This document shows, one piece after another, positions 12,841 to 17,611 of a stretch of DNA of 41,078 bases. The stretch comes from a virus. The notes beneath the pieces were generated by a model, which had not been told where the DNA came from, searched no databases, and worked only from the letters and a program-made list of their open reading frames with translations. The position numbers and the translations under genes were made by a program. The stretch is from positions 1 through 41,078 of the IMG/VR virus record IMGVR_UViG_3300047551_000963, one strand, 5' to 3'. How positions within the stretch are numbered: position 1 is the stretch's first letter; each line of letters starts with the position of its first letter.

Positions 12841-12884
12841 AGGCCGCCAACGCAATCTCCGAACACATGAGGATGCGGCCCTGA
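12747..12884 (+). other. -1 frame continuation of the gene at 12496
   Basis: Re-reading one G of the GGGG run at 12746-12749 continues the protein as GLYHALKRVLAHR followed by VAQILAEAAEMLKAANAISE, a regular helical pattern. It ends in TGA at 12882-12884, exactly overlapping the next ATG as TGATG. The unshifted frame leaves a 43-base gap instead. The joined product would be about 129 residues. Either a base was lost from the G-run (mutation or sequencing error) or translation shifts here; no canonical slippery heptamer is visible. Confidence 0.6.
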
Positions 12885-15800
12885 TGGCGTTACCCCTCCC
12901 CATCCCCGAGTTCAAGCCAGCGGAGCCCGTGCCGTTTTACGAGGCGATCACGTGGTTCCGCCAGCAAGCCCCGTGGATCTCCGGCTCGAGCTGGAACACG
13001 ATGGCGAGCTTGGCAGCGCTCAAAGGCGACCAGATCAGCGGGACCGTCCTGCTGGCCGTGCTGGACGATGTCTGGGGCCAGATGGATCGGGCTGTGGCGG
13101 AGGGCAAGCCTTACGGGTCCTTCCTCCGGGACGTGGCCGAGCACCTGAATACGAAGTGGTATCAGGCGGACAGTGCCCGGCTAAAGTTAATCTACCACAA
13201 CAACGTGGGCGGGGCGCTGATGGCCGGGCGGGAGGCCCGGATGAGCGATCCGGACATCCGAGAGGCCCGGCCCTTCGTTCTCTTCGACGGCATCGGCGAC
13301 TGGCGGCAGACAATCGACATCTGCAAGCCTCGGGATGGGGTCATTCGTTCCATCGACGATGTGTGGTGGAAGGAGAACAGCCCGTTAATGCATCATGGGG
13401 CAGTTGAATCGAGTACACTGATTCAAACAGGCAGGGGAAGGATTCCCGCACGCGATGTAAGGTGCGGCGATAGTGTTTTAACGCACACAGGAGCATACCG
13501 GAAGGTCACAACAGCCGTTCATAAGTACGTGCGGCGTGCGAGGACCAGAATATTACACCTTGATTCCTGGAAGGTTATTCGCGTCACGGACGAGCACCCG
13601 ATACTCCGGGCCGGTACGGACGGGTTCATCTGGAAGCGGGCAGACAGTTTGAAGGTCGGGGATGTATTGCTTCAGAACCCGGATGAGCTTGGCCGGTCTT
13701 TGCGCTGCGGCGTTGTAGATTCTCAAGATTGTCCATCCCTGAGCGACGATCAGCGAATCACGTTTCAGATCCCTGGCCCGTGCTTTCCGCCCGGTATGGC
13801 CTTTCCCGTCCAGCTCGATGGCGACCTTGAATTTCTCAAAGGCAATATCGAGGTTGAACCGACCGATGGGGTGCTGCGCTGTCGCAATCTGCCCGAAGAT
13901 GCCGAGCAAGTAGTACTCCTGTGGGGTGAGTTTTTCCCTGAAAGTATCGGCAATGCTACGAGCGCGGTGCTCGGCAACGGGAATCGTGGCCATGGGGTTC
14001 TTGAGTTTCATCCTGCGGCTGCTGTTTGCGCAGATATCGGAGTCGGCAGATGTCTTGCCCCAGAGGTAATGATTGGCACCGCTGCGTTTGGCAACGGCCT
14101 CGGGCGTAAATCCGCTGATCTTAACCTGATCAATTCTGGATCTGACCGCAATGCCATGCTTTTTACACCAGAGCGAAAGTCGCCCGTTGGCCCAGCCGTA
14201 TTCCCTCTCAAGTTCTCTGATACTCCTGTGCTTACCGAAGTGCTCGGATTCAATAAGGTTAGCGCAAATACCCCTGTCCCTGATGTCTGGTCCAGCTACC
14301 AACATAGGCGAATTACCTCGATTTCTGTAGTGGTTGAAGATACGCAACTTAGCGATTTCACCGTAGAAGAAGATGAATCGTATGTTGCAGGAGACATTGT
14401 ATTACACAATTGCCGCTCAGGCAAGGTGACGCTCGACGAGGAGGATGCTGCGGAACTGGGCGGCGTGACCCCATCCGAGCGGCTGGTGGGGCTCAGGGCT
14501 GCGCAATGGGGTTGGGGCAAGCCTGCAAGCTGGACCGGCTGGCAGCCGGACCCGGCCAACTACCACGCCCCGCTGATGGAGGAGTATACCCAATGGGCGA
14601 ACGGGATGGACTACATCCACGAAAAGCGGGAGTGGGATGCCAAGTGGCAGCGCTACGCCGCCCAGCAGAAGTTTGCGGCGGACGCGGCGGCTGCTCGGGC
14701 AGCAGAGGTGATTCAGCTCAAGTCGGCAGAAGCTGAGCTCAACGACCCCACGAAGGCTGCTGTCTGGCAGAAGCAGCCCAAGTACGACGGGCTGAAGATG
14801 AACGGCATCCCGATTCAGCCAGCGCACAATGGCTACTGGTCGAGCGTCGCGGACGTGGCGACTGGCGAGCCCGCGCTACCGACCGGGCTGGGCAGTGTGT
14901 CAACCGGCATCCTCGTGATGGAGCCTGACGGGCGCATCTGGGTGGTCGAGCCGAAGGATCACTTCGGCGGTTATCAGCACACCTTCCCCAAGGGCAAGCT
15001 CGAGGCGGGATTAAGCGCCCAGCAGAACGCGCTGAAGGAGCTGTATGAGGAGGCGGGGCTAAGCGCCGAGATCACCGGCTACGTCGGCGACTTCAAGGGC
15101 TCGACGGGCGTCACCCGCTACTACCTCGCCAAGCGCACATGCGGGCAGCCTTGGACGGCACACTGGGAAAGCCAGGCGGTCAAGGCGATCCCTGTCGCTG
15201 ACGCCGAGCAGTACCTGAACACCGAGCGAGACCGGGAGGTGATAGCCGTGCTGATGGCGAAAAAGACCGGCTCGCCCCTGCCTCCGGGGCTCAAAACCTA
15301 TGTGACACCACCACCCGCTGTGCCAGCTGCCAGCCCCTACCCCTTCGGGCTGGACCCGGCGAAATACGTGTACTCCGCCCCAAACCACGTCGGCTCGACC
15401 CCGAAGATGGTCGTGGTGCACCCCGACGCCCCCGGAGACAAATTCCTGCTGAAACAGCTTACCGACGAGTTCAAGGCGCATGCCGAGGTGGCTGGCGGGA
15501 AGCTCTACGGGCTGGTCAATGACGATGTGGTCAACGTCGAGATGATGACGCCCTCGTCCCTCCCCGCTGCGGTGCGTGGCAGAAGCAAACTGGTCACACT
15601 CCAGAAGATGACGCCGAACGTGACCGGCTTGACGGACGTGATCGGCCACAAGAGCGCCCCCGACTTCACGAAGCTCACGCCAGACCAGCAGGCGGAGCTT
15701 ATCGCCCACGGCATCGCATCGTGGATGGCTGGCGAGCACGACGGACACGCCGAGCAGTACCTGATCTCGGGCGGAAAGCTGGTGCGGATTGATATGGGGC

Positions 15801-17611
15801 AGGCGCTCAAGTACACGCTGAGCACCGGCGACAAGCTCGAGCTGGACTACCACCCGAATGCAGCATACGGCGAGGCCCGCCCAGCCCACTTGCAGCTCTT
15901 GAAGGCCATCAAGGCGGGTCAGATCGATTCCGCCGTGCTCTACCACTCGAAGGTCAAGGCAGCAGCAGAACGGGCCAGCAAGGTCAGCGAGGCGGCCATC
16001 GTGAAGGCGCTGGGGGGCTACGGAGACCTGCGCCCCTACGGCTACAGCAAAACGGCGATTGCAGCCCTGCTCAAGAAGCGCTCGGAGAACGTCAAGAAGG
16101 ACTGGGCAGACCTGTTCGAGCAGGTGACGGGCGCCCCCTATAGCTGGGACGCCACAGCCAAGCCGAAGCCCAAGCCCAAGCCTCGCGTGCCCCAGCAGGC
16201 AGCCGCCGACACCAGCCCGCCGAAGCTCCAGCCCGGCGTGGACTTCGCGAAGGCGCAGCCTGCGCTTGAGTCCTTCGGGGCTGTCACGGTGATGGCTGAC
16301 GGCGATAAGCTCCGGGGCCAGACATGGCGCGTGCAACGGGCAGACGTCGTGTCTGCTACCAGATCAGAAGCCCGCTACTCCATCACCGGGGAGCTGGACC
16401 AGAGTATCTGGCCTGAGCTCGAGCGGACGCTACAGGCGAAGGGGGCACGCTCCAGATCCTGGGAGAGCTACGGGCGCGTCGGAATGTTCGACCCCACCAG
16501 AGACACCGCCCGCGATCCGGTCAAGAAGTTCGACGCCGGGAACGCCACCGGATTCCTGGGCAAATCGCTGGTCTACACCGCCCCCGATGGCAGCTACCGG
16601 GTCACGTTCGCCGACTCGAGCGCCTACTCTGCGATGCGGGGACGTCTACGCATCGAAGCGCTCAGCGCTGACCCTGGCGCAGCCCAGGACGTGCTCGGGA
16701 AGGCGCTCAAGGACTTGGGGCTTGACCAGTACAAGCTCGACAGTGAGCCGGATATACAGGACACCGTAATAGCTCGCGCTGCTCGAGCGCTCTGGAACAT
16801 CGAGGGCGGCGCATATCGCCCCCCGCGCACGGTAGCTGAAGCCAAGCAGCGACTGAAGGCATACGGGGTGACTAAGATCGAGGCCAAGCAGAACAGCGTG
16901 GGCTATGAGGAGCCCAGCATCCCCGGACGCTGGAAGGGCTACCGACAGAAGGGCGTAAGGTTCCTCTATCATCAATTCAGCCCGAAGGCTGAGGTGGTAC
17001 GGGGCGTCAGCGGCGCAGACGGAAGCCACGGCGGGCTGCTGTCTACCGTGGCGCGGTACGACAACGGCATCATCCGCACGGGGCTATCAAGCTCGGATGA
17101 CCTCTATAGCGGCGGTGCGAACAGCGCATTTGCCCGGATCATAGGAGACCGCACCACCAGCGCAGCGAGAAGCTGGAGCAGCAGTTACCACTACACCGCC
17201 ATCGTAAGCCCCAGGGTGTTGGACCGGGTTGACTGGTACGGCTATAATAGCGACAAATACGGGATAACAACTGGCGTATTCGACACTCGGCAGGGCGCCG
17301 ACGCCCACGTTGAGACCGTGGTCAAACGCGGCGCCAACGACAACGAGATGATGTTCCGGAATGCCATCGCTCGGGAGGATATCTTGTTCTTCGCGGTGCC
17401 GGACGACGGGATGCGGACGAACATGCTGGCCACCCTGTCGGCGGCTGGCGTGACGACGATTCGAGGGCAGGCGCTCGATGAGATGGTGGTCGTAATGAGG
17501 ACCCCCAATGACTACAGCAGGCTGAACGCAAACAACCCCGTCCACGCCTTTTTGATGGGCACACGAGACACGTGCCCGGAATGGACGGAAACCTACGGAG
17601 GAACGCCGTGA
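12884..17611 (+). CDS. gpF/SPP1 gp7-like head morphogenesis polyprotein with intein and extra domains
   Basis: The 1575-residue frame starts with a Mu gpF / SPP1 gp7-type minor head domain; residues 1-172 plus 510 onward contain RPFVLFDGIGDWR, KPRDGVIRSIDDVWW and, after intein removal, HHG-CRSGKVTLDEEDA, the usual place of the conserved Cys. An intein fills residues 173-509. Beyond it lie a Nudix-like domain (~665-800; GKLEAG at 704 and KELYEEAGL, with the first box Glu replaced by Leu), a kinase-like region (KFLLKQLTDEFKAH near 853, GEHDGHAEQYLI near 950, RIDMGQAL near 970) and a C-terminal region (~1360-1560; GGANSAFARI, DNEMMFRNAI) that might be ADP-ribosyltransferase-like. Removing the intein leaves 1238 residues. 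Head morphogenesis proteins bind the portal and help connector assembly; extra enzyme modules are unusual. Confidence 0.85.
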   Translation: MALPLPIPEFKPAEPVPFYEAITWFRQQAPWISGSSWNTMASLAALKGDQISGTVLLAVLDDVWGQMDRAVAEGKPYGSFLRDVAEHLNTKWYQADSARLKLIYHNNVGGALMAGREARMSDPDIREARPFVLFDGIGDWRQTIDICKPRDGVIRSIDDVWWKENSPLMHHGAVESSTLIQTGRGRIPARDVRCGDSVLTHTGAYRKVTTAVHKYVRRARTRILHLDSWKVIRVTDEHPILRAGTDGFIWKRADSLKVGDVLLQNPDELGRSLRCGVVDSQDCPSLSDDQRITFQIPGPCFPPGMAFPVQLDGDLEFLKGNIEVEPTDGVLRCRNLPEDAEQVVLLWGEFFPESIGNATSAVLGNGNRGHGVLEFHPAAAVCADIGVGRCLAPEVMIGTAAFGNGLGRKSADLNLINSGSDRNAMLFTPERKSPVGPAVFPLKFSDTPVLTEVLGFNKVSANTPVPDVWSSYQHRRITSISVVVEDTQLSDFTVEEDESYVAGDIVLHNCRSGKVTLDEEDAAELGGVTPSERLVGLRAAQWGWGKPASWTGWQPDPANYHAPLMEEYTQWANGMDYIHEKREWDAKWQRYAAQQKFAADAAAARAAEVIQLKSAEAELNDPTKAAVWQKQPKYDGLKMNGIPIQPAHNGYWSSVADVATGEPALPTGLGSVSTGILVMEPDGRIWVVEPKDHFGGYQHTFPKGKLEAGLSAQQNALKELYEEAGLSAEITGYVGDFKGSTGVTRYYLAKRTCGQPWTAHWESQAVKAIPVADAEQYLNTERDREVIAVLMAKKTGSPLPPGLKTYVTPPPAVPAASPYPFGLDPAKYVYSAPNHVGSTPKMVVVHPDAPGDKFLLKQLTDEFKAHAEVAGGKLYGLVNDDVVNVEMMTPSSLPAAVRGRSKLVTLQKMTPNVTGLTDVIGHKSAPDFTKLTPDQQAELIAHGIASWMAGEHDGHAEQYLISGGKLVRIDMGQALKYTLSTGDKLELDYHPNAAYGEARPAHLQLLKAIKAGQIDSAVLYHSKVKAAAERASKVSEAAIVKALGGYGDLRPYGYSKTAIAALLKKRSENVKKDWADLFEQVTGAPYSWDATAKPKPKPKPRVPQQAAADTSPPKLQPGVDFAKAQPALESFGAVTVMADGDKLRGQTWRVQRADVVSATRSEARYSITGELDQSIWPELERTLQAKGARSRSWESYGRVGMFDPTRDTARDPVKKFDAGNATGFLGKSLVYTAPDGSYRVTFADSSAYSAMRGRLRIEALSADPGAAQDVLGKALKDLGLDQYKLDSEPDIQDTVIARAARALWNIEGGAYRPPRTVAEAKQRLKAYGVTKIEAKQNSVGYEEPSIPGRWKGYRQKGVRFLYHQFSPKAEVVRGVSGADGSHGGLLSTVARYDNGIIRTGLSSSDDLYSGGANSAFARIIGDRTTSAARSWSSSYHYTAIVSPRVLDRVDWYGYNSDKYGITTGVFDTRQGADAHVETVVKRGANDNEMMFRNAIAREDILFFAVPDDGMRTNMLATLSAAGVTTIRGQALDEMVVVMRTPNDYSRLNANNPVHAFLMGTRDTCPEWTETYGGTP
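13400..14410 (+). other. In-frame intein (Ala1 type) in the head morphogenesis protein
   Basis: The 337-residue insert begins with block A AVESSTLIQTGRGRIPARD, with Ala in place of the usual Cys1 or Ser1, then CGDSVLTH. Block B is VIRVTDEHPIL with the TxxH motif, followed by WKRADSLKVGDVLL. Block F is SDFTVEEDESYVAGDIVL, and block G ends in His-Asn at 14405-14410 followed by Cys+1 at 14411. These are the residues known to be needed for splicing in Ala1 (KlbA-like, class 2) inteins, where Cys+1 attacks the N-junction directly. No Cys is present at the block F position expected of class 3 inteins. The splicing halves are about 13400-13690 and 14306-14410; the middle is overlapped by the antisense endonuclease gene. 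Confidence 0.85.
13553..14305 (-). CDS. Antisense Vsr/DUF559-like homing endonuclease inside the intein
   Basis: On the minus strand an open frame encodes a 250-residue protein from ATG 14305 (GAGG lies about 10 bases upstream; an in-frame TTG at 14347 would add 14 residues). Residues ~28-55 form a helix-turn-helix (SIRELEREYG, LSLWCKKHGI). LKNPM near 101 resembles a NUMOD-type DNA-binding motif. The nuclease core reads TPQEYYLLGIFG (127-), then FNLDIAF (D153), VAIELDGKGH (E164, D166, H170), ARDLKRD and GWTILRIYN, matching the Vsr/EDxHD-related endonuclease pattern. This family is known from homing endonucleases lying between split-intein halves. Here the gene occupies the usual endonuclease position of the intein but in reverse. 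GC is lower (about 50-60% in sampled lines) than in the flanking gene. Confidence 0.8.
   Translation of the reverse strand: MLVAGPDIRDRGICANLIESEHFGKHRSIRELEREYGWANGRLSLWCKKHGIAVRSRIDQVKISGFTPEAVAKRSGANHYLWGKTSADSDICANSSRRMKLKNPMATIPVAEHRARSIADTFREKLTPQEYYLLGIFGQIATAQHPIGRFNLDIAFEKFKVAIELDGKGHTGRKARARDLKRDSLIVAQGWTILRIYNAAAQRPAKLIRVLKQYIPDLQTVCPLPDEPVRTGPEYRVLVRDANNLPGIKV
14396..14424 (-). promoter_or_regulatory. Candidate minus-strand promoter for the endonuclease
   Basis: Read on the minus strand, TTGCCT (complement of 14419-14424) and TACAAT (complement of 14396-14401) are 17 bases apart. The -10 lies in intein block G and the -35 in the flanking extein, so the promoter exists only when the intein is inserted. 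It would start RNA about 85 bases upstream of ATG 14305. Confidence 0.45.

Follow-up and report, generated by a model that had tools for sequence, protein, structure and literature searches.

A head morphogenesis gene of the viral record IMGVR_UViG_3300047551_000963 (IMG/VR) is interrupted by an intein whose coding frame stays open from end to end, and the opposite strand of the same insert carries a complete gene for a homing-type endonuclease. The window, here the whole stretch of DNA analyzed (positions 1 to 41,078 of the record; 41,078 nucleotides), therefore appears to hold a mobile intein with its homing endonuclease gene encoded in reverse inside it, a reading to which we assign a probability of roughly 85%. 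An initial reading made from the letters of the window without database searches (hereafter the sequence-only reading) had placed the minus-strand frame 14305-13553 wholly inside an uninterrupted intein, and this proved correct, as did the stated insert length of 1011 bp (13400-14410).

The antisense frame encodes an EDxHD nuclease

The nuclease frame runs from an ATG at 14305 to a stop at 13553 and specifies 250 residues, with an alternative TTG start 42 bases upstream that would extend the product to 264. The protein matches Pfam DUF559 at 2.5e-10 (40.6 bits, cut-off 20.6), and a profile of the nuclease family matches the solved structures 3hrl (4.5e-11) and 3r3p, the catalytic domain of I-Bth0305I (1.6e-5). 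Residues E130, D153, E164, D166, H170 and D179 do not vary among 11 aligned, diverged members of the family; four of these (D153, E164, D166 and H170) had already been singled out by the sequence-only reading. An AlphaFold2 model built on an alignment of ten family members is confident (mean predicted local distance difference test score, pLDDT, of 79) and contains helical N-terminal elements and a nuclease core ordered as helix, three strands, helix, strand. Foldseek ranks 3r3p first among structures in the PDB, together with 3hrl (probability 1.00), and also lists Vsr (1cw0), at E-values of only 0.01-0.03 and over about 100 of the 250 residues. The core thus combines the catalytic acidic residues and histidine of EDxHD/Vsr-like enzymes with the I-Bth0305I fold, and the profile search and structure prediction that the sequence-only reading had proposed both bear out its description of a helix-turn-helix joined to a Vsr/DUF559-like nuclease.

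Long antisense open reading frames (ORFs) are common in the GC-rich window, and the nuclease frame could on that ground be taken for a non-coding shadow of the sense intein. We regard this as vanishingly improbable. It is refuted by homology, namely the DUF559 and I-Bth0305I matches, and is opposed by the invariant catalytic residues, the confident fold, the Shine-Dalgarno-like sequence ahead of the start codon and the conservation of the nuclease frame in 12 distinct loci. Judged from sequence, the existence of homologues, the intact catalytic residues and the ribosome-binding-site-like sequence mean that the nuclease cannot be a chance ORF.

The sense frame encodes a class 2-like intein

The host ORF (12884-17611) matches the minor head protein family phrog_220 (5e-21), Phage_Mu_F weakly (6e-4) and a NUDIX profile (6e-12). 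The intein is inserted after head-protein residue 172 and is followed by the C+1 codon, TGC, at 14411-14413; its sense frame has no interruption in the window and is not divided into the two ORFs of a split intein. The sense product matches Pfam Intein_splicing at 7.7e-8, slightly under the model's cut-off, which relatives exceed, and scores above the cut-off of the NCBIfam intein C-terminal model (TIGR01443). When the insert and its relatives are combined in a profile, solved inteins are matched, among them the class 2 intein KlbA MJ0781 (PDB 2jmz) at 4.7e-7. Blocks A, B, F and G are all recognizable, with T63-D-E-H66 and a terminal H336-N337 preceding C+1. Residue 1 is alanine in ten of the twelve loci, the window included, and serine in the other two (L006 and L010), while Cys+1 is found in all twelve and position 4 of block F is aspartate or asparagine, never cysteine. 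The family therefore looks like class 2 inteins (Ala1, Cys+1, no block F cysteine), here in phage head proteins. A class 3 mechanism was rejected because the block F position lacks cysteine.

Table 1. Features of the window discussed in the text.
Feature	Position	Strand	Basis or remark
Phage head morphogenesis ORF (Mu gpF / SPP1 gp7-like), intein host	12884..17611	+	Profile matches
Intein, 337 residues, A1 to N337	13400..14410	+	Open sense frame, profile matches, empty-allele junctions
N-terminal splicing part, blocks A and B, T63-x-x-H66	13400..13678	+	Solved-intein matches, modelled strands
C-terminal splicing part, blocks F and G, terminal H336-N337	14306..14410	+	TIGR01443, modelled strands
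Antisense homing-type endonuclease gene, 250 residues	13553..14305	-	Wholly inside intein, codon-on-codon antisense
DUF559 / EDxHD nuclease core (Q144, D153, E164, D166, H170)	13703..13879	-	Profile, alignment, fold
N-terminal helix-turn-helix-like DNA-binding part, predicted	14159..14275	-	Modelled helices 11-23, 29-36, 42-49; conserved in alignment
Shine-Dalgarno-like GAGGT ahead of nuclease ATG	14315..14319	-	Similar sites in most relatives
Stretch constrained in both frames	13553..13678	.	Nuclease C-terminus EYRVLVR is the complement of block B TDEHPIL

Within the head-protein ORF, a NUDIX hydrolase domain is fused downstream (14897-15247).

Both frames are kept open in related phages

Searches of annotated phages by tblastn with both readings recovered the same layout in three Vibrio phage isolates, 1.265.O (MG592630, L003), 1.266.O (MG592631, L004) and 1.082.O (MG592457, L005), whose gene products are annotated only as 'hint domain' or 'coil containing', and scans of viral contigs added the continuous loci L006, L013 and L016. 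These six loci share the window's layout at about 30% identity. The distinct continuous elements likewise number six (the window, L003, L004/L005, L006, L013 and L016), all with their two frames in register and an intein of 337-341 residues, 341 in 1.265.O. Counting continuous and split loci together, 11 further distinct loci conserve the antisense nuclease gene, or 12 with the window. Two scans of 84,980 genomes of bacteria and archaea found no nuclease relatives; the narrowness of the patterns used keeps this negative from extending to prophages at large.

The codons of the two frames pair one to one as complements, so that a stop in the sense frame requires TTA, CTA or TCA in the nuclease gene. 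None of these codons occurs in the nuclease gene of any continuous locus. For the AT-richer L003-L006 and L016, 9 to 14.5 would be expected from the codon usage of neighboring genes (only 600 to 1,500 codons per relative), with P values from 3e-5 to 7e-9; for L013, about 2 are expected (P 0.11), which is uninformative alone. In 15 of 15 pairs among the six distinct continuous elements, conservation is higher when the shared codons are read as nuclease than when they are read in sense. Mismatches peak at nuclease third positions within the gene, and in both splicing parts they peak at sense third positions. A model of the sense intein, built on a shallow alignment of four members and used only for contrast with the antisense fold, shows partial folding at the ends and none in the middle (pLDDT about 19-35 across residues 91-301). 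When the sense intein served as the query in the viral scan, no match was found, as expected if its middle is a shadow. By homology, fold and codon statistics, the antisense frame is a real gene and the middle of the sense frame is its shadow. The sequence-only reading would have been overturned by a nuclease frame lacking profile matches and conservation and behaving as a shadow of the sense frame; instead, the profile matched, the antisense frame recurs in the 11 further loci and the shadow lies on the sense strand. From these codon patterns, the family shows what would be a long double-coding stretch under selection on both strands.

Empty alleles and probable recent transfer

The head proteins of Vibrio phages 1.198.A and 1.236.O lack the insert and share 91% and 88% identity with their counterpart in 1.265.O, and the insert is thus an exact in-frame addition missing from homologous alleles. 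The empty junction in the Vibrio phages is H-x-N/CRS (the slash marks the insertion point), from which it follows that the intein starts with alanine and that splicing would recreate the empty layout exactly. An intein start one residue later, at the cysteine of the Vibrio copies, was rejected because the preceding alanine is missing from empty alleles. The insertion site is a motif conserved across head proteins, and the empty counterpart of the window's protein reads HHNCRSG in Thermus phage Riverbug. Some intein-free V. breoganii phages (L045, L047) have a DNA methylase gene inserted immediately ahead of the head gene.

Between 1.266.O and 1.082.O, intein identity is 98.4%, against 88.3% and 79.9% for the head-gene parts on either side, and the identity of intein-free relatives to one phage or the other reaches 94%. 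A near-identical intein between diverged flanks implies a mobile element and a probable recent transfer between Vibrio phages. The two inteins differ by 16 substitutions, which fall at a nuclease third position in 8 of 10 cases inside the nuclease gene and in 0 of 6 outside it (two-sided Fisher p=0.007). Six of those eight third-position changes are silent in the nuclease and all eight alter the sense residue, a pattern expected from selection on the nuclease and little selection on the sense middle. Substitutions in the splicing parts fall mostly at sense third positions.

These observations bear on whether the insert splices at all. A dying intein, its sense frame open by chance, or an insert tolerated unspliced would fit a residue 1 that is neither cysteine nor serine in most loci and the disordered middle of the sense model, and an unspliced out-of-frame insert has already been proposed for the ShiLan domain (PMC11855218). 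Nevertheless, no splicing block is missing, class 2 inteins likewise combine Ala1 with Cys+1, the junctions equal the empty alleles exactly at a conserved head-protein motif, the splicing-part changes between L004 and L005 sit mostly at sense third positions, and stops are avoided completely in the AT-richer relatives. We therefore consider loss of splicing very unlikely.

Expression signals and the proposed mechanism

Upstream of the nuclease start, most relatives carry AGGAG, GGAGG or GGAG; L008 is without a clear site. In promoter scans, the nuclease strand of the window has a single 9/12 match, at 14424-14396, where 0.1 would be expected across the region; that of L003 has one 10/12 match (1.3 expected), and that of L004 has none.

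Several points weigh against a mobile intein with a reverse-encoded nuclease. The promoter evidence for the nuclease is thin. The window's open sense frame is unremarkable in its GC-rich genome (2.0 stop-making codons expected, P=0.13), for which reason it is the relatives that carry the argument for selection on both frames. The comparison of head genes with and without the insert, proposed in the sequence-only reading, succeeded for the Vibrio phages (empty alleles up to 91% identical) and not for the window: a viral scan with its joined head-protein flanks found no near relative with an empty site, and its own empty allele is known only via phage proteins about 35-37% identical.

The weak promoter evidence would also fit an intein that splices around a nuclease that is an inactive remnant of past homing. 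The catalytic residues are nonetheless invariant, recent substitutions are biased to nuclease third positions, the Shine-Dalgarno-like sequence is kept, and 98.4% intein identity against 80-88% in the flanks implies recent transfer, all of which makes this an unlikely account, if marginally less so than loss of splicing.

Under the favored reading of a mobile intein with a reverse-encoded nuclease, we infer the following course of events. The head-protein messenger RNA (mRNA) would be translated through the entire insert, the middle of the intein being a meaningless complement of the nuclease gene that acts only as a loop, and the two ends would fold into a splicing domain that excises the intein. 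Because residue 1 is alanine, Cys+1 probably attacks the N-terminal junction directly, as in class 2 inteins. The nuclease would be made from an antisense transcript with its own start site; the origin of this antisense mRNA is the weakest step of the mechanism. The enzyme would then cut intein-free head alleles at the conserved H-x-N-C-R-S codons, and repair would copy intein and nuclease jointly. Selection would hold both frames open: a broken intein frame would leave an essential head protein incomplete, and the nuclease is what drives spread. Sense-frame stops, together with an own start codon for the C-terminal half, may finally yield a split intein around the same gene.

Split relatives

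At six loci (L007, L008, L009, L010, L011 and L039), the nuclease gene lies antisense at the same insertion site and the intein consists of two ORFs. All of their 5-13 TTA, CTA and TCA codons are confined to a gap of 268-328 nucleotides that separates the N-half from the start codon of the C-half. Both halves remain in phase 0, and a Shine-Dalgarno-like sequence precedes most C-half ATGs. Those halves that were tested match intein or Hint models. The N-halves stay open some 350-430 nucleotides into the nuclease shadow, far beyond the splicing block.

In a tree of the nucleases, the antisense genes form one clade (100/100) apart from the sense-strand genes described below, and the split forms cluster in 56% of bootstrap trees, nested among continuous forms. 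This nesting weakly favors a continuous-to-split direction, and support in the intein tree is too weak to indicate one. The antisense form may be placed, with good support from the shared gene and site, between the whole-intein and split-intein layouts. The suggestion in the sequence-only reading that it could be such an intermediate has accordingly gained six split relatives with the same antisense gene at the same site.

A second family with nucleases hidden on the sense strand

A separate clade comprises DUF559/EDxHD genes that lie on the sense strand, in a shifted frame, within uninterrupted inteins inserted at the Walker B motif of clamp loaders and helicases (IMG/VR loci L002, L014, L015, L017, L018, L020-L033 and L035-L037). 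Most of these genes are preceded by a strong Shine-Dalgarno sequence. Of 17 tested loci, 16 have no stop in the intein frame across the nuclease gene, where synonymous reshuffling predicts 8.5-32 (P at most 5e-5), and the third frame of the same loci has 9-29. In the cultured phages CP-T1, MR14, 159E43-1b and phi673 (L048-L051), a single annotated helicase ORF spans a nuclease match in another frame. One further clamp-loader intein with a hidden sense-strand nuclease (L034) contains a single intein-frame stop, which may mark a recent break. With this second family, overprinting of homing genes in inteins is recurrent.

Relation to known systems

Canonical large inteins carry a LAGLIDADG or HNH domain in frame. 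They resemble the present elements in having the nuclease between splicing blocks B and F and differ in that it is part of the translated sense polypeptide. Dassa and colleagues reportedly described, in 2009, fractured genes in which a free-standing Vsr-like (EDxHD) endonuclease gene lies between the halves of a split intein. Fractured genes share with our loci the nuclease superfamily, the setting in phage genes and the pairing of an intein with a separate nuclease gene, and the split loci L007-L011 and L039 are of this general type, except that here the gene is antisense and overlaps both halves. The continuous loci differ further in their unbroken intein ORF, whose codons the antisense nuclease gene overlaps. 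Passages of PMC12350094 and PMC10448857 cite such split inteins with free-standing Vsr-like genes.

The ShiLan domain (PMC11855218) is a phage methylase insert that does not splice and contains a sense-strand, out-of-frame HNH gene. It is alike in hiding a homing-type nuclease in another frame of an insert open in the host frame, and differs in strand, in nuclease type and in having no detectable splicing domain; the window element instead has an antisense EDxHD gene and a complete intein. I-Bth0305I, an EDxHD enzyme of a phage group I intron, has the same nuclease core by profile and fold, but is intron-encoded and has another DNA-binding part. KlbA MJ0781 shares Ala1 and Cys+1, and differs in its archaeal host protein and in having no antisense gene.

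Full-text literature searches, whose reach excluded the primary papers on split and non-canonical inteins, returned no antisense homing gene in an intein. The parts are thus known, and it is their fully overlapping antisense arrangement in an unbroken intein that appears new. The novelty suggested by the sequence-only reading holds to that extent, although the window is not a singleton, given the six further continuous loci.

Implications

It seems fairly likely that overprinted inteins constitute a third general layout of mobile inteins that has arisen at least twice in phages, once antisense and in register in head genes and once on the sense strand in a shifted frame in clamp-loader and helicase genes, and that the antisense form links whole and split inteins. 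Such elements have probably been widely overlooked, because gene finders annotate a single 'hint domain' or 'coil containing' protein. If the reading is true, one stretch of DNA is kept open for two unrelated proteins. The entry of nuclease genes into inteins and the splitting of whole inteins are long-standing questions. This family has one nuclease gene at a shared site in inteins of both forms, in phage isolates with closely related empty alleles, and the steps would thus be testable.
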